This document shows positions 4,373-35,417 of a stretch of DNA of 39,491 bases, one piece after another. Within the stretch, counting starts at the first letter, position 1. Each line of letters starts with the position of its first letter. The notes beneath the pieces were generated by a model. The model saw only the letters and a list, made by a program, of their open reading frames with translations, had not been told where the DNA came from and searched no databases. The DNA is from Polyangiaceae bacterium. GTDB lineage: Bacteria; Myxococcota_A; Polyangia; Polyangiales; Polyangiaceae. A program made the position numbers and the translations under genes. Location of the stretch: NCBI GenBank assembly GCA_023150915.1, contig JAKLKA010000061.1:1-39491 (forward strand), in the 5' to 3' direction.

Positions 4373-7300
4373 TCAGCCCACCGCGATGCCCAGCGCCTTG
4401 CGGAGCTGCGCGTAGCTCTCGCTCACGCTGAACAAGAGCAGATCTTTGATCTTCTCTTGCGGCGTGAGATCGCCCGGCAAGCTCGGCTCGGCACCGATGA
4501 TCTTCTTTGCGATCTCGAGATCCGCGCAGACCAGAAGGCCTGCCCGGCACGCCGTCTGCTCCACCGCCTGGTTCCAACGCTTGATGTTCGCCTTGGCGCC
4601 CTCGTCGATGAACTTCTTCACCACGATACGCAGGCCTTCCAGCTGCACGGGCTGCATGTACTTCGCCAGCTCTTGCGCCGTGGCACGGATCTGCGCTTGC
4701 AGATCCGGAGGCATCGGGGTGTTGGGGGCTGCGATCATCACGCCCGCGAAGAGCATGATGGTGAGCTCGGCCTGGGTCGGGAACAGCGTGCGGATGTAGT
4801 GCTCGCCGCGGTAATAGGCCAGGTGCTTGCCACAGATGAAGGTCAGCTCTTGCGGCTGGAACCCGGTGAGCACGGTCTGCCCGGCCAGAGAGGCCGGCGG
4901 CACCGCGGGCACGGCCACGATCGACCCGGGAACGTCGTTCCGGACATAGAGCTCGGGCGACGGGATGCCGAGCACCTGAGCCGCCCAGCCAAACGTCTTG
5001 GCAAAGGTGACGGTGGAAGACGCTGGATCTTGCTTGAAGCGCTTGTCGAGGGTCGGCAGCTTCCCCTGGGACTGCAGCTGCGCGATCTTCGCCTGCAGCG
5101 CAGCCGGCGCGATCATCTCCATCACCTTCGAGACGTAGATGTTCTCGTCTGGGTGGAACAAGAACTTCACCCAGTGCTCGTTGCCCAGGCGCCCCTTCAC
5201 GGGCAGCATGCCCTGCGGCTTGTAGTCCTCGAAGAACTGCTTCTCCTCGCCGTCGATCTTCTTCATGAAGGCCATGGCGGCGGCAATGCACCAGGCTTCG
5301 TCGTACGAGTGCTTCTGCAGGTACAAGCGATAGAGGGCACGGTACGGGTCCACCTTGAGCGGATCCGTCTCGAGGATCCGGCGCTGGGCGGTGATGGCCT
5401 CGTCGAAGCGCTCGCTGACCTCGTAGAGCTCGGCCAAGATCTGGTGCTGCATCACGTCGTCGGGCTTGATGGTCACCGCCATCTTGAAAGCCTCGATCGA
5501 CTCTTCGGAGCGCTGCAGACGATCGCGATAGATGAGGCCCAGCTGGTGCCACAGCGTGTGCTCCAGGTCGGTGTTCCCCTTCCCGGCAATGCGGTGCAGC
5601 ATCTTCCGGTACGACCGTTCGAGCTGCTTCCAGTTCTTCTCTTGCGTCAGGATCTTGTTGATCCGCTCGAACGCCTGCAGGTAACCGGGGTTCAGGTCGA
5701 GGCACTCGTTGAACAGCTCCACCGACCGGTCGAGGTCGTTGAGCTTGTCGCGGTAGATCTGCGCCATCGTGTAGAAGTACCGGCTCTTCAGCTCCGGCTT
5801 TTCCTCGATGGATGCGATGGAGTGCAGCGTGTCGATCATCTTCTGCCACTCCGAGGCCTCGCCGTAGAGTTGCAGCAGCTTGTGCAAGAGGACGTGGTCC
5901 TGCGGCTTCAGCTCTTGCGCCTCTTCCAGCGCCTCGATGGCCTTGACCGCGTTCTTCTCTTTCTCTGCCCAGAGGTCGCCGATCTCGTTGAGCAGGTTGT
6001 AGCGCTCTTCGCCGTCATACACGCCATCCAGGATCTGCCGCTTGTAGGCAGCGACCTGCTTCCAGTCGTTGGCGTGTGCATAGACGTCGATCAACGCCTC
6101 GAGGGTGGGACGGTGCTCGCCGTTGAGAGCCAGCGCCTTCTCGAAGTTGTTGATGGCCTGCTTGGCCTGGTTCTGCTCGCGCTTGATGCAGCCCAGCCGA
6201 TAGTAGACGTCCGTGCGCGCTTCGACGTCTTCCTCGCCGAGGGCGGTCAACACCTTCTGGTAGTTGGTGAGCGCCGTCGGCCAGTCCTTCATCTCGTAGC
6301 CGGCATCGGCTATCCCGCGGATGGCCTCTTGATCGGTGAGATCGAGCTGGTTGGCGGTCTGGTAAGCGCGCAGCGCACGGTCGTGGTTGCCCAGCGCGGC
6401 ATGGACCCGGCCGAGCAGCTTCTGCAGCATGTGCTGCTCGTGGCGCTCGCGGTTCTTGCTCTTCTTGACCAGCATCTCCGCCAGCGGCTCGGCTTCTTGC
6501 CAGCGGCCGACGTTGCTGTACTCCTGCACCAGGGGTAGCGCCGCCTCCTCGCAGTCCTGATCGCACTGCATCGCGAGCTCGTAGGCCAAGACGGCCTGCT
6601 CGTGCTCGTTCAGCATTTCGTCACGCAGCTTGCCGAGCTCGACCAAGAGCTTCGCGCGGGCGCGCGGGGCCTGGGTGTTGAGCTGCTCTTGCTCCAGGTA
6701 GCGTGCTGCGCGGTCCCAGTCTTGCTCGTCGACGGCGATGATGCGCAGCGCCGCCAGGGTGGGCAGGTGGGTCGGGTCGAGATCGAGCGCCATCTCGAAG
6801 CGCTCTTGCGCCTGCGAGCGGTCGCCCAGCTTCTCGTCCAGCGCCTTGCCGATGCGGTAGTACATCTCCACGCGCTGCGTGCCGTCGGAGGTCAGGTCGG
6901 CCACGCGGGTCATGGACTCGATGGCCCGTGCCGCGTCGCCCTGCTTCTCGTAGAGCTTGGAGAGCGCATCGAGCGCCGCGATGTTGGTGTCATCGAGGTC
7001 GACGATGTTCTGATAGGCGTCGATCGCGCGGTCGACGTCTCCGACCTCTTGCGCGTACACCTCGGCCATGGCCGCGTAGAGCTCGACCTTGGTGGCCTGG
7101 TCTGCCGCCTCGCTGATGTGGCGCTCGTAGGTGTTGATCAGATCCAGCCACTGCTTCAGCCGCCGGTAGCAGCGCTCCAGGCTGACGTAAGCGGACTCGC
7201 AGCTGGCGTCGATCTCCACCGCCTGTTCCAGGCGCTGGGCAGCGATGTCGGCCTTGAGGAACTGTTCTTCCTGGATCTGGGCCAGCTTGAGCAGCACGTC

Positions 7301-15809: not shown

Positions 15810-16730
15810 TCAGTTGACCTTTCCGCCGAGCTTCTGGATGAGCGTGTTGCTGGTCTCACACTGCTCTTTGTACTTCGTGGCCTGGGCACTGCGGCAGGCC
15901 CGCTTGACGAACGAGCTGAGCAAGCGAACCGCCTTCTCTTTCTGCGGCGGTTCCATCACGGCGTAGGTGCTGCCCAGGTTGAACGAAATCTCGGGGTGGG
16001 AATCGCCCGCCACTTCTTCGGCCTTCTCCATGGCTGCAACCATCGAGGCCTTGTCGTTCGAGGCCTGCGCGACCTGGAAGCGAAGCACGTACATGCCGTA
16101 CAGGTGGTTGTTGTTCTTCTCACCCGGCGGAATGATGCGCGTGCCCTCTTTCAACACCCCTTCCGCTTCTTTGTAGAAGCGCATGGTGATGAGCAGCTCC
16201 GCGAGCGGCGGGTAGAAGTACGGCGTCATCGAGTCGTGCTCGATGGCCTTGGTGTAGTTGTCGAGCGCGCCTTGCTCGTCGTTCGTCCAGAGGCTGGCCT
16301 CGCCGAGGAAGTGGTAGCACTCGGCCATCCCCGGGTCCTTCTCGACGCACTTCTTGAGGGGCTCCTTCGCCTCCTCGTACTTGTCCGGGTTCCCCGCCTC
16401 GGCCATCTTCACCAGCGCGTAGCCGCGCTTGTAGTAGTAGTTGGCGAACGTGGGGGCGACCTGCGCCGCGCGGGACAGCGTCGAAGCCATCTTGTCCCAG
16501 TCCTCTTTCTTCTCGTACGCCTTCGACAGCTTCCACATGATCTTGTGGTTGGTCGGATCGAGCTGGATGGCCTGCTCGTACTTGGCGATCGCGCCTTCGG
16601 TGTTGACCTTGATGGCCTGGTCACCCTCGTTCGCGAGGTTGATCGCCTCGATGTGATCCCGGCTGCAGGCAGATGCGGCCAAAATCACAGCGCCGAGGAA
16701 CGTAGCCTTCGAAACACTTGCGAGATTCAT
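15810..16730 (-). CDS. TPR lipoprotein between gltG and gltI
   Basis: A 306-residue protein. The N-terminus is a type II signal peptide ending in AASAC, with the lipidated Cys at 22, so it should be anchored in a membrane, probably the outer one. The remainder is TPR: for example AIAKYEQAIQLDPTNHKIM, then A-helix/B-helix pairs through to about residue 290. The typical TPR residues (W/L, G/A, Y/F, A, P) are readable in about six units. It has a GGTGAG Shine-Dalgarno-like stretch before the ATG and a candidate promoter about 100 nt upstream. Its position inside the Glt block, co-directional with gltG and gltI, suggests a structural or assembly role in the same envelope complex. I do not recognise it as one of the named M. 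xanthus Glt proteins. Confidence 0.8.
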   Translation of the reverse strand: MNLASVSKATFLGAVILAASACSRDHIEAINLANEGDQAIKVNTEGAIAKYEQAIQLDPTNHKIMWKLSKAYEKKEDWDKMASTLSRAAQVAPTFANYYYKRGYALVKMAEAGNPDKYEEAKEPLKKCVEKDPGMAECYHFLGEASLWTNDEQGALDNYTKAIEHDSMTPYFYPPLAELLITMRFYKEAEGVLKEGTRIIPPGEKNNNHLYGMYVLRFQVAQASNDKASMVAAMEKAEEVAGDSHPEISFNLGSTYAVMEPPQKEKAVRLLSSFVKRACRSAQATKYKEQCETSNTLIQKLGGKVN

Positions 16731-17083: not shown

Positions 17084-19141
17084 TCAGCCCGGGCTGAACA
17101 TGATCGGGTAGACCACGGTGACGATGCCGCCTTCCGGCTGCGGGAACGAGAGGCCGTAGTATGCGCTGATCACGCAGCCCACCACGCCGCTGTCCGGGAT
17201 GTCGGAGCCACCGTTGGACACGTTCGACACCGAGCCGTCACGACCAATCACGAATCGGACCTGCACACGACCTTCGAGGTTCGGGTTGCGGGACAGGCCC
17301 TGCTCGTAACACATGCGGAATCGGCCGTAGTTCTGGCGAACGATGCGCTGGATGACCTCCGGCGGCAGGCGCCCGCTCACCGTGGTGGCACCCATGCGCA
17401 CCTTGGGCGCCCGGGTCGCGTGGGACCCGCCCAGCCGGCCGTGGCCCGAGCCGAAGCCCTGACCGGTGCCGGTGCCGGCGCCGTGACCCAGGGTGCCGAT
17501 CGAGCCGAGACCGATGCCCTCGCCGCGACCGCCACCACCTTCGCCGATGCCCGACAGGCCGAGACCGCCCGCGCCGAAGGCGTCGCCAATCTCGTCGCCC
17601 CACATGTTGCCGCGGGCAGACATGTCGTCCTGACCGAGCGAGGTGTCGCGACCCCAGGGCGCCGTCGGGGCGTTCGGGTCACCGGCAGCGCCGGTGTTGA
17701 GGAGGCCGATCATGCCGAACTCTTGCGCCTCACGCAGCGCGGCCTGACGAGCGATGTGCGGATCCGGGTTGTCCTTCGGGCCCTGCACGGCGTAGCGCTT
17801 GTTGGTCGCCTTGGAGGTCGGGTTACCCATCGAGCCTTCTTCACCCTTGGCTCGAGTACCGGTACCGCCTTCCTTGTTGTCGGCTTTGTCCTCGGTGACC
17901 TGTTCGGTCTCCTTCTCTTCCATCTCGCGCTCGGCGGCGCTCTTCAAGTACTGCTGGATGAGATAGAGCTGGTCCTTGTCGATGCCTTCGTCGTCGGTCA
18001 GCCCGAGCGGCGGAACGAAGAACGCCATCGCCGCGATCAAGCCCGCGTGCGCCAGGAACGAGAGCGCGAAGTACACGGCCACCGTCCAGTCCACGCCCGC
18101 ACCGACGCCGTGCTTGATCGGCTTGCCGGCGTTGACCGCAGCAACCTGGAACACGAACTGATCGAGCTCGACGCGGGCCCGCGCGCCACCCGGCAGCGGG
18201 AACTGATGCCCACCGCTCACCTCGGCACTGGGCTGCGCCTTGGCGCGCGCTTCGTCCAGCGTCATGCGCGGCTGCCCCGGGATCTCGATGTGGCCCTTGG
18301 CACCCGGCGGAATCACGACCGCCAGCGAGGCGCGATCCCCCACCACCACCGGCAGGCGCGTGGTGCCCAGCTTCTCGGCCGGGATGAAGAAGTCGCAGCC
18401 GAAATTCTTGCTCTGCTCTTCACCCACGTAGAACGTCCGGGGCGGGGTCAGATGCGAGACGTGCAGCACGTTCGTGCCCCACATCACCATCACTTCGACC
18501 GACTGCAGGTGCGGGACCTCGACCTCTTCCGCCGGCACGTCGGGGCCGCTCTTGATCAGCGTATAGGTGTACGTGCCGGGCGGGGCGTCGTCGGGCACGC
18601 GCATCGCTTCGACCCGCGCTTGTTGCTGAGCGCCCGCGGCGAACGGGTTGAGCGCCGCCGCACCGACCTCGAACGGGTTGGCCGTGCCCACCGCGAAGGG
18701 GCTGGAAGCTGCGGCCGCAGCGAACGGATTCGACCCGCCGAACGGATTCGCGCCGCCGAACGGGCTGGCCGGCGGCGCCGCCATGGCCGGTGCCGCCACC
18801 GCTGCCGCCTGCGCGGCCTCCATCTCGGCGCCGGCAACCTCTGCCCGCTCGAGCACGATCTTGGTGCCACCGACCTGAACCTGGTCCCCGACATGCAGCT
18901 TGCACTTGTTCACCCGCGCACCGTTGACCATCGTGCCGGGCTCGTTGCCCAGATCGATGAGCGTGATGTCTTCGGGACTCCCGACCTCGATCACGGCGTG
19001 CATCCGCGAGGCGAGCTCGTCGTCGACCCGCAGATGGCTCTTCGGGTCCTTTCCGACCTTGACGATGTCCTGCGCGATGGTCTCGCGACGCTGCAGCGCA
19101 TCCCCTTGGTAGAGCGCGAACGTGAGTACAGCCTTTGCCAT
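17084..19141 (-). CDS. gltG: GltG/PglI-like gliding protein: FHA domain, transmembrane segment, TonB-like C-terminal domain
   Basis: A 685-residue inner-membrane protein. The N-terminal FHA domain (about 1-100) has KVGKDPKSHL, SRMHA (45-49) and NGARV (73-77); Lys stands where the canonical GR Arg would be. A low-complexity stretch (about 124-168) holds NPF/SPF motifs six times. One hydrophobic segment lies at about 354-377, followed by an acidic helical linker, a Gly-rich linker (about 520-575) and a C-terminal domain (about 588-685) of the AgmX/PglI family, related to TonB C-termini. That domain carries Cys611 and Cys656, likely a disulfide. The predicted topology is FHA in the cytoplasm and the TonB-like domain in the periplasm, where it would touch periplasmic or outer-membrane Glt proteins. 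The start follows the upstream small gene by 63 bp. A paralogous Nfs assignment is possible. Confidence 0.87.
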   Translation of the reverse strand: MAKAVLTFALYQGDALQRRETIAQDIVKVGKDPKSHLRVDDELASRMHAVIEVGSPEDITLIDLGNEPGTMVNGARVNKCKLHVGDQVQVGGTKIVLERAEVAGAEMEAAQAAAVAAPAMAAPPASPFGGANPFGGSNPFAAAAASSPFAVGTANPFEVGAAALNPFAAGAQQQARVEAMRVPDDAPPGTYTYTLIKSGPDVPAEEVEVPHLQSVEVMVMWGTNVLHVSHLTPPRTFYVGEEQSKNFGCDFFIPAEKLGTTRLPVVVGDRASLAVVIPPGAKGHIEIPGQPRMTLDEARAKAQPSAEVSGGHQFPLPGGARARVELDQFVFQVAAVNAGKPIKHGVGAGVDWTVAVYFALSFLAHAGLIAAMAFFVPPLGLTDDEGIDKDQLYLIQQYLKSAAEREMEEKETEQVTEDKADNKEGGTGTRAKGEEGSMGNPTSKATNKRYAVQGPKDNPDPHIARQAALREAQEFGMIGLLNTGAAGDPNAPTAPWGRDTSLGQDDMSARGNMWGDEIGDAFGAGGLGLSGIGEGGGGRGEGIGLGSIGTLGHGAGTGTGQGFGSGHGRLGGSHATRAPKVRMGATTVSGRLPPEVIQRIVRQNYGRFRMCYEQGLSRNPNLEGRVQVRFVIGRDGSVSNVSNGGSDIPDSGVVGCVISAYYGLSFPQPEGGIVTVVYPIMFSPG

Positions 19142-21223: not shown

Positions 21224-24200
21224 TCACTTCTTCCCGCCCTTCTTCTCTTCCTTCTTGGGCTCTTCCGCAGCCTTCTTGGGGGCCGGCGGCTCGGGTGGCG
21301 GCGCCACCGTCACCAGCGGCTCTCCGCCGATGCGCAGCGGGAAGGCCTGCTCGTTGAGCACGCTGTTCACCCGCGTCGGAGCGCCCCGGAACTCGTCGAT
21401 CAGGTGGTATTCGGTCTTGTAGGTCTTCGCGAGCCACTTCTCGCACTCGCGACTGAACTCGTCGAAGTACTGGTGCTTGACCGAGTACCCGAGGCACGTC
21501 TCGAAGGCGCCGCGGGCCACCTTCTTCTGCGGCTCGGAGGCGTCGTCGAGGGCGCCGTAGTACGCGGTGCGCAGCTCGTAGTCCTTCTTGATCGAGTCGG
21601 GGATGGGGGCGGCGCGGAACTCGTCCACGAAGGTGCCCCACATGTTGCCCACCTGGGAGCCGGCCGCGATCACCCAGCGCGGCGGTGGCACCGGCTGCAG
21701 GTCGACGATCTTCTTGTATTCCTTGGTCGCGTCGTCGATCAGCGGCTTCTTCTTGCCGATCCAGTCCTTCACCTTGACGTTGATGTGCTTGAGCACCTCG
21801 TCCTTGGTGGCCGGACCCTGGAACGCCGGGAACTTCACGGCGTCGACCTTCGCCTTCTTCTGCTCGGCGAAGTAGAACAGCGACTCGCCCACGGCCTCGA
21901 GCGCGCGACCGAGGCGGCGCTGCTTGTCGCCCTCGCCCTTCTCGATCTCGCTCACGGCCTTGGACGGGTCCGCCCAGAGCTTGACCACCGCGCCGTACTC
22001 GTTGGCGGCGTTCTTCTTCGACTCTTTCAGGGCGCGACCCATGAGGGCATGGGCTTGGACGCGCACGTCGAGGGTCGCCTTGGCGTCGATCTGCCGCATG
22101 GCGCCGCCCAGGCGCTTGGCCACGTTGCCCCAGTCCTTCTTCTCGCCGTAGTGCGCGGCGATGGCGAAGCCGAGCTGGGCGACCTGATCGGGCTTCTTGG
22201 TACCGAAGTAGCGGTTGAACTTGTCGGCGTCGTCGATCGCCTTCTCGTCTTGGCCGAGGCCCAGACGAAGGACGGCCGCGTCGCTCAGGGCCTTGTCGGC
22301 GTCTTCACCGCACTTCTTGAGCTTGCCGCAGGTCTGCTCGACATAGCGCTCGAAGAAGTCCGCGGCGCGGTCGTACACGGCGATGGCCTGGTAGTTGCCG
22401 CCGATCTCGTAGGTGGCCTTCTGCGCCAGATCCGACTTTTCCATCCCGTACTTGGGATCGAGCAGGATCAGGCGTGCCTGGATCGACTTCGCGAGCAGGC
22501 GGCCGGCCTGATAGGCGCGAGCCATGTTGTAGACGATTTCACTCGCCTTCTCGCACTGCTTGGGCTTCTCGCCCTTGCTCATCGGGCCTTCGCAATAGCC
22601 GCGCCACATCTCCAGGTACATGTCTGCACCCTTCTTGTAGTTGTCGACCGCGTCTTTGCTGTTGTTCTTGTCGAGCTGAGAGTCCGCGAGCTCGACCGTC
22701 TTCTGCGCGCGAAGGCGCTGAATGTCGAACTGGATGCGGGTCAGAAGCTCGCAGTTGTCCTTGTTGTCGTCGTACTTCTTGCCCTCGCAGTACAGCTTCA
22801 GGAACGAGGGCACGTCTTTGCCCATGTCGTCGAAGCAGGTGGGCCGGGGCGGCTCGGCGCGGCCGCCGAGCACGTTCAACGTCTCGAGGTAGAGGTTGGC
22901 GGCGTAGATGCCCGAATCGTGGGTCGAGTGGTTGAGGGCGACGTCGCGGAACGCGAGCGCCGCTTCTTCCCAGTGCTGGGCCTCGTAATAGGTACGGGCG
23001 CGCGCGAACTTGACCTCGACGTACTGGTCCTCGGCCGTCTTGTCGCCCTTGGCGGGCGTGATGTAGCAGACGTAGCGGTTGAAGGCCTGGATCATGCCCT
23101 TCTGGAGGCTGGTGAACTCCTTGGGCTTGAACTTCTCCCACTCGCCCTTCTTCGCCTCGCGGTCCTTGGCGTCGGCGCCGGACGGGCCCAGGCCCTTGCC
23201 CTTGCGGTCCGCCTGGCCCTTGTACATGGCGTCGTACATCTTCTGGTAGCAGAGCACCGAGGCGTAGGCGGCTTCGGCCGCGCTCTCGCCCTTCGGGTCT
23301 TCGGCCACCACCGAGTCGAACGCCGGACCGCACTCTTCCCAGCGCTGCTGGAAGTAGAGCAAGTCGGCCATCGCGTACTTGATCTTGTAGAGCGACGGCC
23401 AGTCGCTCTTCACGATGCGGGGGAACTCGAACTTGCTGAACTCGTCGCGATTGAAGTTCTCGGCGACCTTTTTGTAGAGGTACGCAGCGAGGTCCATCGT
23501 CTTCTTGTCGCCGGTGCCGCGAACGCCGCCGGAGCCCACCGCTTCGAGGTGCCAGGCCATGGCGCTTTCCGCCAGCAGCTCGGCCGTGCGGTTGGCGCAC
23601 TCCAGCTTCTTGTCAGCCGGGTGACTCTCCTTGGCGAACGAGTTGCGCATCGCCAGCTGCGTCTCGAGCTCTTTCTTGATGCCGTCCTTGTCGGACGACT
23701 TCATGGCCTGGGTCGCCACCGTGATCTGGGTCTGGTAGTGGCAGCTCTTCGGCCCCTTGTCGCGGCTCATCAGGTCGCGATAGAGCGCGATGCCTTCCTT
23801 GTACTTGCCGGTGTCGAGGTAGGCGAGACCCAGCTCGTTGAGCATGTCCAGGGTCTTGGCCTGCTCGCCGCCCTTGTCGCCCGAGAGCGGCTTGAAGAAG
23901 TTGAAGGCGCGATCGGGCTGGCCGCTGGCGGCGTAGACCGGAATCAGGTCGCGGCGCGCGCTCTTGGCGAGCTGCGTGGCGTTCGGAAGGGCCGTGTACT
24001 GGTCGCCGTACTCGATCACCTTCTTGAACTCGTTCATCGCGTCGGTGTACTCGCCCTTGTTCCAGTGCACGTACCCGAGCTTGTAGCGGGCGAAGCCGTA
24101 GACCTTGTTCTCCGGCGCCGGGTACTTGATCACCTCTTTGTACGCCGCGGCCGCCAGGTCCCACTTGGCCGGGTCACCCTGCGCGTCTTGGAAGAAGAGC

Positions 24201-24955
24201 TCGCCGAACGCCAGATAGGCGTTGGGGATGTACGGCGACTTCGGCGCCTTCTCGATCAGCTCGAAGTAGACCTTGCGGGCGTTGGTCAAGTCACCCGCCT
24301 GCTCGTACTCGTAAGCGAGGTAGTAGAGCACCTCGTCGAGCTTCGAGTAGTTCGGGTACGCCGTCTTCATCAAGGTGTAGTACTTGATGGCGCTCTTGCG
24401 GGCGGCCTCGACGATCTTCTTGGCGGCCGTGGCGTCGCTGCGCGCCTTTGCCGCCGCGCCCGGGTTCTTCTTCTTCAAGTCCTGCGACTGGACGTCGGCC
24501 TTGGTCTTGTCGCGGAGCGCTGCGCTCTCGAGCTCGACGTAGCCTTCAGCCATGCGCCGGATCAGCTGCGGGCGGTCCGCCGACTTCTTCGGCGTGCTCT
24601 TGTAGAGCCGCTCCAGACCCTGAATCTCGGTGATCAAGAGCGCGCGCGAGCGCGCCTCGAGCCGGTTCTTGCGACTGTCGCGCTGACCGGCGGCCATGGC
24701 CTCGGTCGGGTTGGTGGGCTTGCGGTTGCTCGCGTCTTTGCGCTCGCGAGGCGGCGGCGCGCTCTTGAACGCCGCGGGGCGCTTGCCGCCCACCTGGAAC
24801 TTGCTCGGCCCTCCCGGGCACTCGCTCAGGTGCTTCTTGGCGTCGGGGCCCACGCAGGAGCTGGAGAGATCGTCGGCGGCCGCCGACGTCGCCGGGGCCG
24901 CAATCAGCGCACCCAGCAGTGCCGACAGCACGGACAACGCTTTCAGGGACTTCAT
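21224..24955 (-). CDS. gltD: GltD-like large periplasmic TPR protein
   Basis: A 1243-residue protein. ATG 24955 is chosen because GGGAGG lies 8 nt upstream and the product opens with a signal peptide (1-27, cleavage before DDL). No membrane segment follows, so it is expected in the periplasm. Much of it is TPR-like helical repeat: ARKVYFELIEKAPKSPY, YAFDKI-type pairs and AAAYKEVIKYPAPENK are readable in the first third. There are charged Lys-rich linkers and many Cys in the middle (for example TCGKLKKCGED), suggesting disulfides. The C-terminus is Pro/Glu/Lys-rich and ends EEKKGGKK. Size, signal peptide and position between the gltC-like and gltE-like genes match GltD/NfsD of myxobacteria. 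It starts 5 bp after the gltC-like stop and its stop overlaps the next ORF by 1 bp. Confidence 0.8.
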   Translation of the reverse strand: MKSLKALSVLSALLGALIAAPATSAAADDLSSSCVGPDAKKHLSECPGGPSKFQVGGKRPAAFKSAPPPRERKDASNRKPTNPTEAMAAGQRDSRKNRLEARSRALLITEIQGLERLYKSTPKKSADRPQLIRRMAEGYVELESAALRDKTKADVQSQDLKKKNPGAAAKARSDATAAKKIVEAARKSAIKYYTLMKTAYPNYSKLDEVLYYLAYEYEQAGDLTNARKVYFELIEKAPKSPYIPNAYLAFGELFFQDAQGDPAKWDLAAAAYKEVIKYPAPENKVYGFARYKLGYVHWNKGEYTDAMNEFKKVIEYGDQYTALPNATQLAKSARRDLIPVYAASGQPDRAFNFFKPLSGDKGGEQAKTLDMLNELGLAYLDTGKYKEGIALYRDLMSRDKGPKSCHYQTQITVATQAMKSSDKDGIKKELETQLAMRNSFAKESHPADKKLECANRTAELLAESAMAWHLEAVGSGGVRGTGDKKTMDLAAYLYKKVAENFNRDEFSKFEFPRIVKSDWPSLYKIKYAMADLLYFQQRWEECGPAFDSVVAEDPKGESAAEAAYASVLCYQKMYDAMYKGQADRKGKGLGPSGADAKDREAKKGEWEKFKPKEFTSLQKGMIQAFNRYVCYITPAKGDKTAEDQYVEVKFARARTYYEAQHWEEAALAFRDVALNHSTHDSGIYAANLYLETLNVLGGRAEPPRPTCFDDMGKDVPSFLKLYCEGKKYDDNKDNCELLTRIQFDIQRLRAQKTVELADSQLDKNNSKDAVDNYKKGADMYLEMWRGYCEGPMSKGEKPKQCEKASEIVYNMARAYQAGRLLAKSIQARLILLDPKYGMEKSDLAQKATYEIGGNYQAIAVYDRAADFFERYVEQTCGKLKKCGEDADKALSDAAVLRLGLGQDEKAIDDADKFNRYFGTKKPDQVAQLGFAIAAHYGEKKDWGNVAKRLGGAMRQIDAKATLDVRVQAHALMGRALKESKKNAANEYGAVVKLWADPSKAVSEIEKGEGDKQRRLGRALEAVGESLFYFAEQKKAKVDAVKFPAFQGPATKDEVLKHINVKVKDWIGKKKPLIDDATKEYKKIVDLQPVPPPRWVIAAGSQVGNMWGTFVDEFRAAPIPDSIKKDYELRTAYYGALDDASEPQKKVARGAFETCLGYSVKHQYFDEFSRECEKWLAKTYKTEYHLIDEFRGAPTRVNSVLNEQAFPLRIGGEPLVTVAPPPEPPAPKKAAEEPKKEEKKGGKK

Positions 24956-27275: not shown

Positions 27276-27932
27276 ATGACACGTTCGATTCCGGCTAGTT
27301 GGCTGATCCTGGCGTCCGTTCTGGGCCTGTCTGCGCTCGCGTGCGAGCCGGGCGGGGTCGGCGACCCGTGCGTCCCCGAGGACGAGTACCGCGTCGACTT
27401 CGGCGGGTACAACGAGAGCGAGGTCAACGTCGAGAGCCGCTCGTTCCAGTGCGAGACGCGCGTCTGCCTCGTGAACCACTTCCGCGGTCGCGTGAGCTGC
27501 CCCTACGGGCAGAACGAGAGCGCGATCCCCAAGAACAACTACTGTCCGGAGTGTACTGGCAACCTGCCGGGGACCGATCCGAAGCGGTGCCGCATTCCCG
27601 GCACCAGCGGCGCCACCGAGGCCGATGCCGTCCAGGTCCCCGTGCCGCCTCAGCTCGAGGGGCGAAGCGCCGCGGCAGCGGAGGAACACTCCGGCGGCAA
27701 GGACTCCGTCTATTGCTCGTGCCGGTGTGACGGGCCCGATCCCAATGCTCGGTATTGCGAGTGCCCGAGCGGGTTCAAGTGCGAGAAGTTGATCGACAAT
27801 CTGGGTCTCGGTTCGGCCCAGCTCGCCGGCAGCTACTGCATCAAGGAAGGCTCGAAGTACAACCCGGCCGAGGGCGGGGTGACCTGCAACTCGACCCTCC
27901 AGAACTGCGGCACCAGCGGGAACAACCCCTGA
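27276..27932 (+). CDS. Cys-rich putative lipoprotein
   Basis: A 218-residue protein with a lipoprotein signal ending LSALAC (lipidated Cys23). The mature part is very rich in Cys (about 16 more), mostly in pairs and short spacings: CETRVC, YCPEC, YCSCRC, YCECPSGFKCEK. The YCECPSGFKC part resembles an EGF-like loop, and the protein is probably held by many disulfides outside the cytoplasm. No catalytic motif recognised. It is divergent from the gltC operon and overlaps or abuts the next gene (yraN-like), so they are probably co-transcribed. Function unknown. Confidence 0.78.
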   Translation: MTRSIPASWLILASVLGLSALACEPGGVGDPCVPEDEYRVDFGGYNESEVNVESRSFQCETRVCLVNHFRGRVSCPYGQNESAIPKNNYCPECTGNLPGTDPKRCRIPGTSGATEADAVQVPVPPQLEGRSAAAAEEHSGGKDSVYCSCRCDGPDPNARYCECPSGFKCEKLIDNLGLGSAQLAGSYCIKEGSKYNPAEGGVTCNSTLQNCGTSGNNP

Positions 27933-28436: not shown

Positions 28437-29225
28437 TCAATCCAAAGTCTGCTGCATTTCGGCCCGCAGCTTCTTCAGTGTCTCCATGTCCTTCGCGTCG
28501 GCCTTGCCCTCGAGCGCGCCCATGGCGCGGTCGAGCAGCGCGATCTCGTTCTCTTGCCGCTGACGCCAGGCGACGACCATGTCGTTGAAGGCATCGAAGA
28601 AGTCGACCAGCTCGTCGCCCTTGCGAAGCTTGCCCGGGACCTTCAGCTTGCCCTCGCCGACCTCGCGGATCTGGCGCTTCATCTTGAAGATTGGGCCGGC
28701 CACCTTGTGGGTGACGAGGATGCCGGCGATGCCGATGCCGAAGACCAGCAAGAACAGCACGGCGCCGAGCGAAGTCATCATCGTCTTTTGCTGGCGCGCG
28801 ATGTCGGCAGACTGCTTCTTCAGGTCCGCCGCCTGACCCTCGAGCTCGAGCTGCTGCTTCTTGAGTCGATCGTCCTGGGCCTGCGCGTCGGTCTTGAACG
28901 CCTCGAGCAGCTCGGGGTTGTCTTTGTACGCTTCGTCCTTGACGATGTTCATCTGAACGACGGCGCTGACCTTTCGGCTCTCGTCGACCACCTGCTTGCC
29001 GAACGAGACGACCTGCTCGCTCTTGTGGACGGTGGAGTGGCTCTGGGCCAGCACGGCATCGCTGGTCTTCCACAAGATGTAGCCCAGCGAACCGCTCAGC
29101 ACGACGGCGATGGCCACCAGATAGCCGGTGTACTTCAGCTGAAATCGGGTATCGAGCAGGTAGTTCCGGAGCCGGCGCTGGTGTCGCCCTCCCGCTTGTG
29201 CCGGTGCGGCTGCCGCTTCTGCCAT
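28437..29225 (-). CDS. HAMP-domain membrane protein without output domain
   Basis: A 262-residue protein. The start at 29225 is preferred over 29231 because AGGA then lies 7 nt upstream. It has an Ala-rich basic N-terminus, transmembrane segment 1 at about 33-52, a periplasmic helical domain of about 100 residues with a Gln/Lys/Leu coiled coil (about 112-148), transmembrane segment 2 at about 152-172, and a HAMP domain at about 173-225 (VAGPIFKMKRQI at its start, GDELVDFFDAFNDM in its second helix). About 35 more residues form a helix and the protein ends. No kinase, cyclase or methyl-accepting region follows, so it probably acts by binding a partner. It is downstream of a secreted HEAT-repeat gene on the same strand. 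The gene ends 139 bp from the convergent yraN-like gene. Confidence 0.82.
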   Translation of the reverse strand: MAEAAAAPAQAGGRHQRRLRNYLLDTRFQLKYTGYLVAIAVVLSGSLGYILWKTSDAVLAQSHSTVHKSEQVVSFGKQVVDESRKVSAVVQMNIVKDEAYKDNPELLEAFKTDAQAQDDRLKKQQLELEGQAADLKKQSADIARQQKTMMTSLGAVLFLLVFGIGIAGILVTHKVAGPIFKMKRQIREVGEGKLKVPGKLRKGDELVDFFDAFNDMVVAWRQRQENEIALLDRAMGALEGKADAKDMETLKKLRAEMQQTLD

Positions 29226-29275
29226 GGTCATTTCCTCAATCGGTTCGGAGACCGCACGGGTGGCCCCAGGGCGCC

Positions 29276-29327: not shown

Positions 29328-30137
29328 TCATTGAATGCGCTCCATGTTCTGCGAGAACTTCTCGATGGCGCGCCGGGACGCGGTTTTTATCAGGTCGTCC
29401 TCACTGGAGGTGTCCTTGTCCGAGACGCCCTCTTGGGTGAGCTTGACCGGGATGTTCCCCTTCAGCGCTTTGCCGGGATAGGTGAAGATCGCCACGTCGA
29501 TCTTCACCTGCAGCGACCCGCCCGAGTACTTCGGCTCGAGCACCTTGGGCGACAGCAGAAAGGCCTTCAGCTTCTTCCACTTCGCGAGCCGCTTGGTGGC
29601 CTCGGCGGTGGTCTCGCTGGCGGGCGCGATCACGAACCCGTCTTGCTCACCGGCGGCCTTCACCATGGCACTGCGGACGAGCTTGGCGACCTCTTCACCA
29701 TCGCGGCCGGTCTTGTCGCTGGCCTTGGCGATCGCGAGGTAGACCTTGGTGCTGTCGGTGATCGCCGGCTCGGCGCCCCCCTTGATGGTCGCCAGCGCCT
29801 TCTTGATGGCGGCCTTGACCGAGGCGTTGCTTTCGTCGGCGAGGCGCTTCTCCAGGCAGTCTTCACCGCCCTTGGCCAGCTTGCCCAGCGCGGCGGCGGC
29901 GGCGGCGCGCACGGTGTTGTTGCTGTCTTCGAGCCCCCCGCACAGCGGGTCGACCGCCCGCTTGCTCTTCGACGCGCCCAGCGAGAGGGCCGCCTGGGTG
30001 CGAACGCGGAAGTCGTCGCCGTTCTTCAGCTTGTCGGCCGCCCGGTCGATGGCGTCTTCGGCGCTGGCGGGCAACGCGAAGAGCAAGACGGCGGTCGCCA
30101 ACAGCGAGACGAGAACGCGGCCGGCCGCCCGAGACAT
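29328..30137 (-). CDS. Secreted HEAT-repeat protein
   Basis: A 269-residue protein from ATG 30137, chosen because it opens a good signal peptide (1-26, cleavage after ASA before EDA); in-frame starts further up (ATG 30182, TTG 30239) would bury it. Two or three HEAT/PBS-lyase-type repeats follow (RTQAALSLGASKSKRAVDPL, then VRAAAAAALGKL, then VKAAIKKALATI). The second half (about 130-269) is a mixed alpha/beta domain of unknown type with LEPKYSGGSLQVKIDVAI. It should be periplasmic. It is divergent from the beta-sandwich membrane gene across 141 bp and is followed by the HAMP gene, a likely two-gene unit. Function unknown. Confidence 0.78.
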   Translation of the reverse strand: MSRAAGRVLVSLLATAVLLFALPASAEDAIDRAADKLKNGDDFRVRTQAALSLGASKSKRAVDPLCGGLEDSNNTVRAAAAAALGKLAKGGEDCLEKRLADESNASVKAAIKKALATIKGGAEPAITDSTKVYLAIAKASDKTGRDGEEVAKLVRSAMVKAAGEQDGFVIAPASETTAEATKRLAKWKKLKAFLLSPKVLEPKYSGGSLQVKIDVAIFTYPGKALKGNIPVKLTQEGVSDKDTSSEDDLIKTASRRAIEKFSQNMERIQ

Positions 30138-30278
30138 CCGCGAGCAGCCTATCACGACCCAGGTCGCGCTCGCGGTCCGCATGATTCTTCCCACTGGCTC
30201 TCTTTCGCGTAGGACGGCCGTCGACGCGACGGCCTTCAATCGGGCTATGCTGATCGCGAGCGTCCCACATCGGACTTC

Positions 30279-32006
30279 ATGCGCGCACCCGTTTTCTCTT
30301 CAGCTCTGGCCGCCTTCTTCGCGCTCATGGTGTGGGCGTGGGTCGCCTCGGCCGTGAAACTCCAGGTCCGTGGGTCGACCGAGCTGGATGCGCGGGCGTC
30401 GATCCGCGACGGCCGGCTCGAGCTCAAGGGCTCGATCACGGACGACACGGGGCGCCCGGTCGGCCAGGCGCGAGTCCGGGTGCGGGCGACCCGCGAGCGC
30501 GGAGGCCCGGCGCTGCGACTGGGCCGGCCGGTGGGCTGTGGCGAGACCGGCCAGCGCCAGATTCACGCCGGCAGCGACGAGCTCTTGGTCGACACCAACG
30601 GCAGCGGCGCGTTCTGCGTTTCGCTGCCGGACCTGGATCGACGTGCGGCGCTCAGCGTGTCGTTCGACGGCGACCGCTTCCACGAGAAGAGCTCCACCGA
30701 GCTCGACGTCGACTCTTCTCGCCGCAGCCTGGTGCTGACGTTCTCGCCGGCCCCCGCTCAGCTCGCGCTGGAGCGCGAGTCTCACGCGATCTGGCTCGAC
30801 GCTCGGGTCGATCCGGTCGACGAGACGGTGAGCGAGGCGCTGCAGCTTCGCCTGATGATCGAAGAACGCGACGGGAACCGCCGCGAGCTCGGGCGGGCCT
30901 CGATTCGTTCGGGCGAGCGCGCCGAGCTGGTGGTCAAGAGCAAGGACCTGGGGGCGGCAGGGCCGGCGACCCTGGTCGCAGAGTTCGCGGGCTCGGACAC
31001 CACCCAGCCGGCGCGGCGCGCAGCGCCCGTGCAACGCACGGTGAAGGTCGCGCTGTCCGTCGCCGGGAAGGTCCCCGCGGCGGATCCCAGCGCCGGCCTC
31101 GAGCTCGACGTGGCCGTCGGGTCGAGCGCGGGCGCGGTGAACGCGGGCGCGGTCGAGATGCTGGCCGGCGGCGAGAGCGTGGGTACGGCGCCGGTGCGCG
31201 GCGGCGCGGCGCACGTGGCCTCGGTCTTCCCTCTCCCCGCCTCGGGCCCGATCACGGTGACCCTCCGATACCTCCCCGAGGCGCCGTGGTGGCTGCCGGG
31301 CGACCCGGTGGTGATCTCGGTCCCCGTGGCGCCCCCCAGCCCCTGGCGACGGCTGCCGTGGGTGCTGGCCGCGCTGGGGATCGGCGCGTGGGTGGTACGC
31401 ACCTGGTGGCGCCCGACGCGCACCGAAAAGCCAGAGAAGGACCGAGCCAGCCTGCCACCGGGTCGGCCCTCGCTGGACGTGATCGAGGTCGGCCCCGAGC
31501 GCTCGGGTTGGCGGGGGAGAGTGGTCGATGCCCACGAGGGCCATGCCATCGCCGACGCCAGCGTGGTGATCCTGCTTCCGGCCTTCGCGTCGGACGGCGT
31601 GGCGGCCCGGGCGTTCTCCGACGACGAGGGTCGCTTCGAGCTGCCCGCGGTGCAGCGCATGGACGGCGCGCGCCTCCAGGTGTCGTCCCGGTGGCACTCG
31701 ACCCTGCTGCGCGACCTGCCGCCGGCCGGGCACCTTCAGGTGAGCTTGGTGTCCCGGCGACGGGCGCTCTTGAGTCGGTTGGTCGACTGGGCCGGCCGGA
31801 TGGGCAAGCCGTGGACGACCCCCGGCGACCCGACCCCGCGCCACGTGGCGTCGGTCGCGCGAGCCCGCCACGCCGACGACGTGGCCCTCTGGGCCGGCGA
31901 GGTCGAACGGGCGGCCTTCGGCGCCGATGCCCCGGACGCCGAGGTCGAGGACCGAATTCGGGAGCAAGAACCCGCCTGGCGGAGCGGTGACGACGCCAGA
32001 CGTTGA
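30279..32006 (+). CDS. Membrane protein with beta-sandwich repeats and a carboxypeptidase-regulatory-like domain
   Basis: A 575-residue protein. A hydrophobic N-terminus (about 5-25) serves as signal peptide or anchor. About 330 residues of beta-rich, Ig-like sequence follow (first unit RLELKGSITDDTGRPVGQA), then a transmembrane segment at about 358-376. After it comes a segment GWRGRVVDAHEGHAIADA...DDEGRFELPAV typical of the carboxypeptidase regulatory-like fold, at about 447-520, and a basic/acidic C-terminus. With a cleaved signal peptide this last domain would lie in the cytoplasm, which is unusual for the fold. TATGCT at 30246-30251 may be its -10. It ends at 32006, within the -35 box of the ftsY promoter. 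Role unknown. Confidence 0.72.
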   Translation: MRAPVFSSALAAFFALMVWAWVASAVKLQVRGSTELDARASIRDGRLELKGSITDDTGRPVGQARVRVRATRERGGPALRLGRPVGCGETGQRQIHAGSDELLVDTNGSGAFCVSLPDLDRRAALSVSFDGDRFHEKSSTELDVDSSRRSLVLTFSPAPAQLALERESHAIWLDARVDPVDETVSEALQLRLMIEERDGNRRELGRASIRSGERAELVVKSKDLGAAGPATLVAEFAGSDTTQPARRAAPVQRTVKVALSVAGKVPAADPSAGLELDVAVGSSAGAVNAGAVEMLAGGESVGTAPVRGGAAHVASVFPLPASGPITVTLRYLPEAPWWLPGDPVVISVPVAPPSPWRRLPWVLAALGIGAWVVRTWWRPTRTEKPEKDRASLPPGRPSLDVIEVGPERSGWRGRVVDAHEGHAIADASVVILLPAFASDGVAARAFSDDEGRFELPAVQRMDGARLQVSSRWHSTLLRDLPPAGHLQVSLVSRRRALLSRLVDWAGRMGKPWTTPGDPTPRHVASVARARHADDVALWAGEVERAAFGADAPDAEVEDRIREQEPAWRSGDDARR

Positions 32007-32066: not shown

Positions 32067-33308
32067 ATGGAAATCGTCTACGTCCTCGTCGGGATCGTGG
32101 CGCTCGTCGCCGTCTACTTCCTCTTCTTGCGCAAGCCAGAGCCGGAGAAGCTCGAAGCGCCCCCGAAGCGCGAGCTGCCGGAGAAGAAGGAAGAGGCGCC
32201 GAAGAAGCGCGAAGAGCCCAAGCCCAAACCCGCGGTCGAGAAGGCCGAAGCCAAGCCCCACGCCGCCGCGCCCGCGAAAGCGGAGCCACGCGCGGTCGAG
32301 GCGGCCGAGATTCCCATCGAGACCGAGGCCCCCGCCGAACCGTCGCGTCCGTCGCTGACACGCGTGCGCGATGTCGCCGGCTTGCGCAAGGGGCTCGCCA
32401 AGAGCCGCAGCGACGAAGGCTTCTTCGGCAAGCTGAGGGCGCTGATCGGCGGCAAGAAGGAGATCAGCCCTGCCATCGCCGAAGAGATCGAAGAGATCTT
32501 GCTCGCGTCGGACGTGGGCGTGGCGACGACTCAGGCCATGCTCGCGCGCATCAAAGACGCGCTGAGCAAGTCCGACCTCGTCGACTCGTCGCGCGTCTGG
32601 AGCGCGGTGCGGGACGAGGCCAAGCGGATCCTCGACGTCGACGGAAAGGCCGGAGCCTTTCCGCTGCGCGGCAGCCCGACGGTGGTGCTGATGGTCGGCG
32701 TGAACGGGGCTGGCAAGACCACCACCATCGGCAAGCTCGCCACCAAGCTGCAGGCCGACGGCAAGAAGGTCGTGCTCGCTGCCGGCGACACGTTCCGGGC
32801 GGCCGCCGTGCAACAGCTGGTGGTGTGGGGTGATCGCGTCGGCTGCGAGGTCGTGCGCGGGAAAGACGGGGCCGACCCCGGCAGCGTCGTGTTCGACGCC
32901 ATCAAGAAGGCCCAGGAGACCGGCGCCGACGTGGTGCTCGCCGACACCGCCGGCCGGCTGCACACCAAGACCAACTTGATGGCCGAGATGAAGAAGATCG
33001 CCAAGACCGCCGACAAGGCGCTGGCGGGAGCCCCCCACGAGGTCTTGCTGGTCGTCGACGCGACCAACGGTCAGAACGCTCTGGCCCAGGCCAAAGAGTT
33101 CAAAGAGCAGCTCGAGCTGACGGGGATCGTCCTGACCAAGCTCGACGGCACCGCGAAAGGCGGTGTGATCCTGGGCATCTGCGACACCTTCGGGGTGCCC
33201 GTGCGGTTCGTGGGCCTCGGGGAGCGCCCGGACGACCTGCGCGATTTCTCGGCGGACGAATTCGTCGAGGCGCTTTTGGGCCCAGACAGCGAGTCGAGCG
33301 CGGCCTGA
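32067..33308 (+). CDS. ftsY: Signal recognition particle receptor FtsY
   Basis: A 413-residue protein. It opens with a membrane-spanning helix (about 3-21) instead of the soluble start of E. coli FtsY. A Lys/Glu/Pro/Ala-rich A region follows (about 22-95), then the N domain helices and the G domain. The SRP GTPase motifs are intact: GVNGAGKTT (211-219), DTFRAAAVQQL, DTAGRLHT (about 293-300), TKLDGTAKGG (about 357-366) and the closing GLGERPDDLRDFSADEF. FtsY docks ribosome-SRP complexes at the inner membrane and hands them to the translocon. GGAGG lies 12 nt before the ATG, a rather long spacing. It has its own promoter. The gene just downstream encodes an outer-membrane barrel with a separate promoter. 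Confidence 0.97.
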   Translation: MEIVYVLVGIVALVAVYFLFLRKPEPEKLEAPPKRELPEKKEEAPKKREEPKPKPAVEKAEAKPHAAAPAKAEPRAVEAAEIPIETEAPAEPSRPSLTRVRDVAGLRKGLAKSRSDEGFFGKLRALIGGKKEISPAIAEEIEEILLASDVGVATTQAMLARIKDALSKSDLVDSSRVWSAVRDEAKRILDVDGKAGAFPLRGSPTVVLMVGVNGAGKTTTIGKLATKLQADGKKVVLAAGDTFRAAAVQQLVVWGDRVGCEVVRGKDGADPGSVVFDAIKKAQETGADVVLADTAGRLHTKTNLMAEMKKIAKTADKALAGAPHEVLLVVDATNGQNALAQAKEFKEQLELTGIVLTKLDGTAKGGVILGICDTFGVPVRFVGLGERPDDLRDFSADEFVEALLGPDSESSAA

Positions 33309-33483: not shown

Positions 33484-34509
33484 ATGAAGAAAACGCGCGT
33501 CGGGCTCCTCGTAGCAGCTGCGCTCTGCGCAATGCCCGCGGGTGCCTGGGCTCAGGGCAAGAAGCCCGCCGCCGGCGACAAGCCGGCGCCCGCCGAAGCC
33601 GGCAAAGCAGCCGGTAAGGATGCAGGCAAAGAAGCTGGCAAAGAAGCCGGCAAGGAAGCCGGCAAAGAGGGCGCCGAGGTTGCGGGCGAGGGTGGTGAGG
33701 CAGGCGAGGGCGGCGAAGAGCCGGGCGGCGAGACGCCGGGCGGTGAAGAGCCGGGCAGCGATCTGGGCGACATCTGCAAGATCGACCCCGCGGCGTGCCC
33801 CAAGCTCGACATGAACAAAGAGGCGGCCAAGCCCCTCAAAGAGCAGATCTACGCCGTGCAGCAGATCTTCGCGCTGCGCGTGCGTCGCTTCGAGGTGAAT
33901 CCTTACTGGTCGTTCAGCTTGAACGATCAGTTCGTGAGCCACCCGGGCCCCGGCCTCGCGCTCAACTACTACATCACCAACGTTCTCGCGGTCGGCGCGA
34001 ACTTCAACTACTACCAGCCGTTCAACGTCGACAGCGAGTTCAACGCCCAGGTTCGCCGGGCGGCCCGCGTCGGCGTGCCGCTGACGGAGTACAACTGGGG
34101 CGCCGCGCTGAACTTCACGTACGTTCCGGCGTACGGCAAGTTCGCGGGCTTCGGCGACTTCATCTTCCACTACGACGCTTACGTCGTCGGTGGCGTGGGC
34201 GCCATCAGCACTCGCCCGATCCCGGTCATCGACCCCGACAACCGCAACTTCGAGTGGGAGAACCGCATCGCGTTCAACGCGGGTCTGGGTCTGCGAATCT
34301 TCTTCAATCGCTGGTTCGCAGCCACGATGGAGGTCCGCGACTACGTCTTCAACGACAAGCTCGAGAACACCGAGATTCCGGCCACCCAAGCTGATCAGCA
34401 GAAGGAAGAGAATTGGTACGGTGAGTCCAAGCTGACCAACGCCGTTCAAGCTCAGGTGGGCGTGTCGATCTTCATTCCGTTCTCCTTCGACTACAGGTTG
34501 CCGAAGTGA
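33484..34509 (+). CDS. GltA/GltB-type outer-membrane beta-barrel protein, first of a pair
   Basis: A 341-residue protein. AGAGG lies 5 nt before ATG 33484. Signal peptide 1-22 (cleavage after AWA before QGK). The next ~80 residues are a Lys/Ala/Gly/Glu linker with a 12-bp in-frame repeat (GKEA, DNA 33625-33669) and Gly/Glu/Pro-rich sequence. A short CKIDPAACPKL motif follows, then a beta-barrel of about 210 residues: RRFEVNPYWSFSLNDQF, a Gly-rich first turn, repeated aromatic amphipathic strands, and a closing strand IPFSFDYRLPK. This is the outer-membrane barrel family of myxobacteria to which GltA, GltB and their Nfs paralogues belong. The stop overlaps a GTG of the following barrel gene. 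Which of the two is A or B is not decided here. Confidence 0.8.
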   Translation: MKKTRVGLLVAAALCAMPAGAWAQGKKPAAGDKPAPAEAGKAAGKDAGKEAGKEAGKEAGKEGAEVAGEGGEAGEGGEEPGGETPGGEEPGSDLGDICKIDPAACPKLDMNKEAAKPLKEQIYAVQQIFALRVRRFEVNPYWSFSLNDQFVSHPGPGLALNYYITNVLAVGANFNYYQPFNVDSEFNAQVRRAARVGVPLTEYNWGAALNFTYVPAYGKFAGFGDFIFHYDAYVVGGVGAISTRPIPVIDPDNRNFEWENRIAFNAGLGLRIFFNRWFAATMEVRDYVFNDKLENTEIPATQADQQKEENWYGESKLTNAVQAQVGVSIFIPFSFDYRLPK

Positions 34510-34538: not shown

Positions 34539-35417
34539 ATGAAGACGACGGCAACCCTACGCAAGCTCTTCACCGGCCTGGCAGCGCTCTTGGCGGTGGG
34601 TGTGGCGACCGAGCGGGCAGAAGCTCAGGAGATTCTCCTCACCGGGCCCCTGGCCGGTGCACCGGCCGTGCGCAAGCTGCGGCTCTATCGCGAGAAGCGC
34701 ATCGAGGTCGCTCCGGCCGCTTCGTTCACGCTGCTCGACGAGTACCAGCGCGAGATCTTCTTCGGAGCCCGGCTCAACTACAACCTGACCGACTGGCTGG
34801 CGATCGGCGCCTTCGGCGGCTTCGGCGCGGTCAAGCTCCCCACCGGGCTGAGCGAGAAGATCCAGGACGTGAACGACAAGCGTCGCAAGACGCAGGCCCC
34901 CGACACCACCGACCGCCGGCTGACGGCGGTGAACCTGGGCCCTGATTTCAAGGATCAGCTCGGGACCATGGACTGGGTGGTCGCACCGCAGCTCACTGGC
35001 GTGCCCTTCCGCGGCAAGCTGGCGCTGTTCCAGAACATCTACCTGGACACCGATCTGTACTTCTTCGCCGGGCCGGCGTTCATCGGCGTCAGCGAACGCA
35101 AGAACTGCGACACCAACGCCAGCACGGCCGAGCCGGACTGCGGGGTGACGTTCGACAAGCAGAGCCGCGTGGCGATCGCGCCGACCTTCGGCCTGGGGTT
35201 CACCTTCTACGCCAACAAGTGGAACGCGCTCGGCTTCGAGTGGCGCGCCCTGCCCTTCTCGTGGAACACCGGTGGCTTCGACACCAAGGGCGGCGGCAAG
35301 GACAAAGAGTTCCCCGACAACAAGATCGACGACAAAGACCGTCAGTTCCGGTTCAACCAGATGCTGACGGTGTCGTGGAACTTCTACTTCCCGCAAGAGT
35401 ATCGGGTCAGCGAGTAG
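34539..35417 (+). CDS. GltA/GltB-type outer-membrane beta-barrel protein, second of a pair
   Basis: About 292 residues from ATG 34539, which opens a good signal peptide (about 1-29, cleavage near AEA before QEI). Starts at GTG 34506, ATG 34509 and ATG 34527 are also in frame. The family start is clear: LRLYREKRIEVAPAASFTLL, FGARLNYNLTDWLAIGAFG, then further amphipathic strands and a final VSWNFYFPQEYRVSE. Two Cys in the NCDTNASTAEPDC loop may pair. It is translated right behind the first barrel gene (about 30 bp), so they are one transcript and probably sit together in the outer membrane, as GltA and GltB do in the gliding complex of M. xanthus. A block of 65-bp repeats begins just after the stop. 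Confidence 0.8.
   Translation: MKTTATLRKLFTGLAALLAVGVATERAEAQEILLTGPLAGAPAVRKLRLYREKRIEVAPAASFTLLDEYQREIFFGARLNYNLTDWLAIGAFGGFGAVKLPTGLSEKIQDVNDKRRKTQAPDTTDRRLTAVNLGPDFKDQLGTMDWVVAPQLTGVPFRGKLALFQNIYLDTDLYFFAGPAFIGVSERKNCDTNASTAEPDCGVTFDKQSRVAIAPTFGLGFTFYANKWNALGFEWRALPFSWNTGGFDTKGGGKDKEFPDNKIDDKDRQFRFNQMLTVSWNFYFPQEYRVSE

Follow-up and report, generated by a model that had tools for sequence, protein, structure and literature searches.

Gene Organization of the Locus

The window analyzed here is a 39,491-bp stretch of DNA from a Polyangiaceae bacterium (contig C292 of an 8.0-Mb genome in 295 contigs). Seven genes on its minus strand are transcribed in the order GltC, GltD, GltE, GltF/CglF, GltG, a TPR lipoprotein, and a GltI-like protein, and a pair of outer-membrane barrel genes lies on the plus strand (Table 1). 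The grouping of GltC-, GltD-, GltE-, GltG-, and GltI-like genes on the minus strand, which had been proposed in the original prediction, was borne out by open reading frames, profiles, and position; the genes for GltF/CglF and the TPR lipoprotein were absent from that prediction. The gltC gene had also been placed directly upstream of gltD with a gap of 5 bp, and the stop of GltC at 24961 and the start of GltD at 24955 agreed with this. The GltD stop and the GltE start have one base in common (21224). The GltA/GltB-type pair, expected further along, indeed begins 6.6 kb past the GltC start in the orientation opposite to gltC, and it adjoins a gene whose product, named from its sequence, we take to be FtsY-like.

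Table 1. Genes of the locus, with their positions in the window and the basis of each assignment.
Product	Position	Strand	Basis
GltI-like giant TPR protein, 3756 aa	4373..15643	-	TPR families, position, length, profile
TPR lipoprotein, 306 aa, in the gltG-gltI gap	15810..16730	-	Lipobox pattern, predicted TPR superhelix, distant-member profile
GltG; FHA domain, membrane segment (by eye), TonB-like C-terminal domain	17084..19141	-	NF033760, NF033768, PF00498
GltF/CglF, 91 aa, signal peptide (by eye)	19205..19480	-	NF033764, recurrent position
GltE-like TPR lipoprotein, 495 aa	19737..21224	-	NF033758, position between gltD and gltF
GltD-like TPR protein, 1243 aa, presumed periplasmic	21224..24955	-	Generic TPR models, position after gltC
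GltC, 626 aa	24961..26841	-	NF033756
Cys-rich lipoprotein-like protein, 218 aa, divergent from gltC	27276..27932	+	Conserved neighbor
HAMP-like membrane protein without kinase	28437..29231	-	PF00672, weak (18 bits; cut-off, 25)
HEAT-repeat protein, secreted (by eye)	29328..30182	-	PF13646, E 8e-12
575-aa protein, weak carboxypeptidase-regulatory-like match	30279..32006	+	PF13620, 28 bits (below cut-off); frequent neighbor
Presumed FtsY-like protein, adjoining the barrel pair	32067..33308	+	Name from sequence
GltA-type outer-membrane barrel	33484..34509	+	TIGR04565, 100.3 bits
GltB-type outer-membrane barrel	34539..35417	+	TIGR04565, 55.7 bits

Profile-Based Identification of the Glt Genes

The window proteins were compared with NCBIfam models. 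GltC matched NF033756 (E 1.7e-90; 304.6 bits; cut-off, 450) and GltG matched NF033760 (E 7.5e-101; 338.6 bits; cut-off, 650), both matches spanning almost the full length. GltG additionally scored above the cut-off of NF033768 (83.9 bits; cut-off, 40), and its FHA domain corresponded to PF00498. GltE matched NF033758 (E 1.3e-18; 67.2 bits; cut-off, 225) with a score little above that of the generic TPR model TIGR02917 (61.9 bits). CglF, which PMC4488436 equates with GltF, matched NF033764 (E 6.5e-6; 26.1 bits; cut-off, 90), and the cross-genome comparison showed that it recurs at the same position in other loci. The profile check thus confirmed homology for GltC, GltE, GltF, and GltG, but none of the four reached its curated equivalog cut-off, and we therefore classed them as homologs rather than curated equivalogs. 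No Nfs model was present among the NCBIfam matches of the window proteins. The GltC profile found no match in 14 control genomes, and a sequence search of the PDB gave only FHA-domain matches for GltG and none for GltC.

Dedicated NCBIfam models for GltD and GltI were absent from the matches, GltD matching generic TPR models only, and these two genes were assigned by their position and length and with profiles made from their relatives. The GltI-like product is a TPR protein in which no signal peptide was seen by eye, as predicted for the giant cytoplasmic TPR protein GltI. A 3926-aa giant occupies the same position, beside gltG and the TPR lipoprotein gene, in a genome of another family (G036). 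Judged from these assignments, the window contains an ordered cluster of GltC, GltD, GltE, GltF, and GltG homologs.

The barrel pair was compared with TIGR04565, a broad barrel family that is unspecific for GltA/B. The GltA-type protein scored above its cut-off of 60 (100.3 bits) and the GltB-type protein just below (55.7 bits). In the barrel tree, the GltA-type protein grouped with one barrel of G036 (C333a; support, 0.776) and the GltB-type protein with the other (C333b; 0.963); this orthologous-looking pair sits on a contig separate from the glt locus of G036. On this basis, the two window genes are predicted to encode GltA/GltB outer-membrane barrels.

Two Kinds of Loci and the Distinction Between Glt and Nfs

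Of 188 phylum genomes, 148 gave a GltC match at E <= 1e-30 and the other 40 gave none. Surroundings were taken for part of the phylum matches. Loci were picked by GltC match, best first, and the sample is therefore biased toward strong GltC. Further relatives comprised the best 80 of 317, all of them MAGs except the isolate Lujinxingia vulgaris and with no Myxococcus among them; the scan of relatives used two peptide patterns, neither of which fits the WRDELGTY form of G001, whose class was represented by one genome at >= 90% completeness. The resulting 144 loci in which GltC scored 100 bits or more were reduced to 136 by removal of repeats.

In 14 loci, gltC is immediately preceded by one or two barrel genes in its own orientation. 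The nfs order has been described with barrels in this position and orientation relative to the gltC homolog, and the label 'nfs-like' for these loci rests on gene order, not on named Nfs sequences. A FastTree tree of GltC separated the 14 loci from the rest with a support of 0.69 (0.998 after re-rooting; the lower value was used), and a GltD tree did so with 0.79; the window fell outside the same-strand-barrel set in both. The GltG tree contained only 9 of the 14, and locus L166 fell with them (0.52). Tree support for the division into two sets was moderate. The locus on contig C25 of G001, another genome of the phylum, fell among the loci with same-strand barrels in the trees of GltC and GltD, apart from the window. 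It resembles the window in its A-C-D-E-F-G-TPR lipoprotein-I content and differs from it in having all genes on one strand; its upstream end carries a gene for a VWA-like lipoprotein, and its downstream end a GltJ-like gene that is split between two frames. Its GltC and CglF scored above the curated cut-offs and its GltE and GltG below. This locus is among the 14 yet carries the TPR lipoprotein and GltI, indicating that gene content does not divide the two sets cleanly.

These data bear on whether the window encodes a spore-coat (Nfs-like) locus, which would serve polymer transport in sporulation rather than gliding. Nfs is the closest paralog of Glt, and the M. xanthus nfsA-H cluster (G3) resembles the window in that homologs of A to H lie in one region, as described by Wartel 2013 (PMC3858216). 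However, nfs is reported to lack GltI, GltJ, and GltK homologs (Luciano 2011, PMC3169522), whereas in the window the genes for a TPR lipoprotein and a GltI-like protein come after gltG, and the barrel genes are divergent. The TPR lipoprotein is, moreover, absent from 4 of the 5 nfs-ordered loci (of 14) that could be judged. The window genome has two other GltC-like genes, one on contig C234, preceded by a barrel-like gene and with no gltD after it, and one on contig C240, ending near the contig end, so that only one complete set was seen in the genome, as judged from the surroundings of the GltC-like genes. The linked GltI-like gene, as identified above, favors a probable Glt over an Nfs identity, and we consider the spore-coat interpretation unlikely.

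Linkage of gltC and gltD Across Genomes

In M. xanthus, the gene families found in the window are distributed over cluster G1 (gltD-J, MXAN_4870-4862) and cluster G2 (gltK, B, A, and C, MXAN_2538-2541). According to the gene order given by Luciano 2011, rather than a sequence comparison, the window has in common with these clusters the internal order D-E-F-G-(gap)-I and the presence of a barrel pair and GltC. In M. xanthus, gltC lies with gltA/B, away from gltD-J, whereas in the window it is joined to gltD and the barrel genes are divergent. The window further differs in that no GltH was seen, the TPR lipoprotein gene occupies the gap between gltG and gltI, and a GltJ-like gene is located on another contig. 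Our original assumption of two separate M. xanthus clusters was accordingly right for glt, described by Wartel 2013 as gltA-C and gltD-H, but not for the nfs paralogs, which form one cluster in the same account.

The gltD gene was found directly 3' of gltC in 128 of the 132 non-redundant loci in which the adjacency could be judged, four of the 136 having no room. The exceptions were L075, L166, L167, and L204, of which L167 nevertheless shows GltD in the locus comparison. The adjacency extended to a Bdellovibrio MAG (L169). The gene-order comparison across the phylum that had been proposed showed the order C-D-E-F-G-TPR lipoprotein-GltI to be widely recurrent, and the occurrence of the same gene run in many genomes indicates that the window arrangement is not due to chance. 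Distances of five locus proteins also co-varied over 64 loci (Mantel r 0.71-0.90; permutation maximum, 0.16).

A similar conclusion is already in print. In Luciano 2011, gltC, gltD, gltE, and gltG are treated as an ancestral core that together with aglRQS forms one region outside Deltaproteobacteria and in Geobacter; G1 and G2 are reported to be grouped in four Anaeromyxobacter, and ancient linkages to have been lost. The window resembles this core in that gltC adjoins gltD, gltE, and gltG, and differs from it in lacking the motor genes and in including genes for GltF, the GltI-like protein, the barrels, and the TPR lipoprotein. From the near-universal adjacency of gltC and gltD together with the accounts of Luciano 2011 and Wartel 2013, in which the main point of a joined arrangement has been made, we conclude that the joined locus is the usual, older arrangement among relatives, one of the two options initially considered, and that the split of glt in M. 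xanthus is best read as derived.

The divergent GltB-GltA-FtsY block showed a narrower distribution, being present in 21 of the 84 loci that extend at least 8.5 kb upstream. Among loci of the window's own class, taken regardless of their upstream length and overlapping the 84, it was found in 21 of 30, and four further own-class loci that were counted as duplicates (L073, L076, L082, and L083) lacked it. The same block occurred in MAGs of Sandaracinaceae and Sandaracinus. HEAT and HAMP genes often accompany it and are absent in L055, L056, L060, L063, L064, L065, and L068. This block is a lineage-specific part of the locus. The gene for the Cys-rich lipoprotein-like protein is a conserved divergent neighbor of gltC.

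The other option initially considered was a lineage-specific merge, in which ancestral gltA-C and gltD-J clusters had recently been united in the lineage of the window. The limited occurrence of the barrel-FtsY block beside gltC suggests that this particular linkage may be lineage-specific, but for gltC and gltD the frequency of their adjacency, its presence in the Bdellovibrio MAG, and the published linkages outside Deltaproteobacteria, in Geobacter, and in Anaeromyxobacter refute a merge, which as a whole is very unlikely. It is scarcely credible that unrelated TPR and barrel genes merely resemble Glt genes, and we rejected this reading: TPR matches are promiscuous and the curated cut-offs were not reached, but GltC and GltG gave near full-length matches to Glt models at E < 1e-89, the GltC profile found nothing in the control genomes, and gene order is conserved across loci.

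Search for GltJ, GltH, and Motor Genes

GltJ, GltH, and the AglRQS motor had not been recognized in the window, and we likewise found none of them there; GltJ-like and motor-like genes are nevertheless present on other contigs of the genome. Within the window, matches to the GltJ profile were confined to the tail of GltG, and ExbD gave no match. No GltH-sized open reading frame was found in the gap between gltG and the TPR lipoprotein gene of the window, and in 16731-17083 no open reading frame of at least 60 aa with GC3 > 0.75 overlapped, apart from the frame of the TPR lipoprotein itself. A GltJ-like open reading frame on contig C85 matched the GltJ profile below the cut-off at its start, middle, and end (stretches 1-40, 126-202, and 580-671).

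Contig C3 carries two back-to-back sets, each of one TolQ-like and two ExbD-like genes, which we provisionally assigned to motors by similarity. The minus-strand triple was closest to three genes that adjoin a GltG-like gene in the genome of a Bdellovibrio MAG; this closeness was clear for the two ExbD-like proteins and narrow for the TolQ-like protein (160.4 versus 150.2 bits). A TolQ-ExbD-ExbD set on contig C45 was rejected as a gliding motor because it lies between a TonB-family gene and a gene for a large CarboxypepD_reg-domain protein. A second GltG-like protein, in which no FHA domain was seen by eye, is encoded on contig C275.

A Conserved TPR Lipoprotein Between GltG and GltI

The TPR lipoprotein is outside the standard parts list GltA-K. 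We determined its distribution in loci whose GltG scored 100 bits or more and that extended far enough beyond it, leaving out 17 loci that had GltG but were themselves too short. Of the 69 judged loci lacking same-strand barrels, 65 carried it (exceptions, L099, L113, L144, and L166), as did 1 of the 5 that have such barrels (absent in L169, L281, L282, and L284). A GltI-like gene followed in 36 of these 66 loci, a count in which loci ending too early were not set apart. A crude pattern of our own detected a lipoprotein signal in 63 of the 66 members. The protein is presumed to reside in the periplasm or at the outer membrane. Distances of the TPR lipoprotein co-varied with those of GltC, GltD, GltE, and GltG (r 0.71-0.83).

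Structural prediction gave a TPR superhelix with high confidence (mean pLDDT, 94.2; pTM, 0.85), and among the 50 matches listed by the fold search there were generic TPR structures only. The window protein passed no NCBIfam cut-off among the families listed, and for the G001 protein only the generic TPR_END_plus domain passed among the 25 of 35 matches listed. We built a profile from 23 members, leaving out the window and the loci with its barrel block, and ranked candidates genome-wide, scoring 150 of 193 to 352 first-look candidates per genome. The window gene was the best match in its genome (141.5 bits; next, 79.6) over nearly its full length. The glt-locus gene likewise ranked first, each time nearly full length, in G098 (148.8 bits; next, 88.3), G172 (272.1; 115), G001 (241.6; 134.3), and G007 (258.9; 121). 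Two genomes, G188 and G111, were known by same-strand-barrel loci only. In G188 the two top matches were level, at 114.8 bits (27-267) and 114.0 bits (3-262 of 291; 327-aa frame), so a distant relative is possible there; the best match in G111 was partial (80.3 bits).

In M. xanthus, Luciano 2011 places MXAN_4865/4864 (agmV) between gltH (MXAN_4866) and gltI (MXAN_4863), and describes agmV, a transposon hit of a gliding screen, as 'probably not actual genes'. A vesicle proteomics study of 2014 (PMC4158809) includes MXAN_4865 AgmV among the detected proteins. These two were the only sources concerning the gene among the literature matches listed for MXAN_4864/65 and AgmV, and the word AgmV was absent from the available text of a 2025 review (PMC12288465). 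The TPR lipoprotein corresponds to the agmV slot by position only, as given by Luciano 2011. We tentatively suggest that it could be an overlooked part of the GltI-type machine, likeliest an outer-membrane or periplasmic TPR adaptor, with AgmV (MXAN_4864/65) as its ortholog; the proposal is possible, though somewhat short of even odds.

Discussion

The locus is in all probability unexceptional: it would encode a Glt-type envelope machine of the GltI-bearing kind, inherited vertically and keeping the older, joined gene order. Homology, gene order, and conservation are established for the locus, and motor-like and GltJ-like genes are present in the genome. By analogy with the M. xanthus machinery, an AglRQS-type proton-driven motor in the inner membrane, encoded elsewhere, would move GltG, whose FHA domain would face the cytoplasm and whose TonB-like domain would extend into the periplasm. 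The TPR proteins GltC, GltD, and GltE, together with the TPR lipoprotein, could then pass force across the periplasm and deliver it to the GltA/GltB barrels and surface parts. On the same analogy, we infer that force transfer is probable and that the machine would be used in gliding; it may also have a role in the transport of surface polymers, as for Nfs.

Since the joined locus is common and older, the model organism M. xanthus, with its split clusters, is the exception. If the TPR lipoprotein is a true component, GltA-K would not be the full parts list, and a gene that was no longer studied after 2011 would merit renewed attention.

Neighbors of the glt genes and additional GltG-like and motor-type genes

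Features of the window and of the compared contigs are listed below.

Features in the window and in compared loci
Feature	Location	Strand	Remark
Cys-rich lipoprotein-like protein, 218 aa	window 27276-27932	+	divergent from gltC
HAMP-like membrane protein without kinase	window 28437-29231	-	
HEAT-repeat protein	window 29328-30182	-	
Presumed histone-deacetylase-like protein	window 37976-38998	+	named from its sequence
tRNA-His gene	window 39043-39115	+	
Two motor-type triples, back-to-back	L203 (G000:C3) 9883-14105		
Second GltG-like protein	L206 (G000:C275) 10090-11862		GltG profile match
1569-aa protein with GltG-like part	L267 (G000:C13) 3782-8491		
Lipoprotein-like protein with VWA-like motif	L268 (G001:C25) 6076-7749		

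Elsewhere in the genome of the window, each motor-type triple comprised one TolQ-like and two ExbD-like proteins, and the same arrangement of triples was found in two other genomes (G098 and G172). The second GltG-like protein scored 484.7 bits against the GltG profile, with no FHA domain apparent when its sequence was inspected by eye, and the GltG-like part of the 1569-aa protein scored 347 bits. The latter protein adjoins a 1337-aa protein.

In the joined glt locus of G001, the VWA-like lipoprotein, which may resemble CglB, was encoded directly upstream of the barrel gene and showed weak matches, below the cut-off, to CglD and a MIDAS adhesin.

Comparison of gene order among loci showed that the HAMP-like and HEAT-repeat genes neighbored the divergent GltB-GltA-FtsY block in many, albeit not all, cases. 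The Cys-rich lipoprotein-like gene was found in 24 of 30 loci from the organism's own class under a strict filter, and the gene-order comparison revealed it also in loci L068, L069, and L080. Its product is a possible surface partner.
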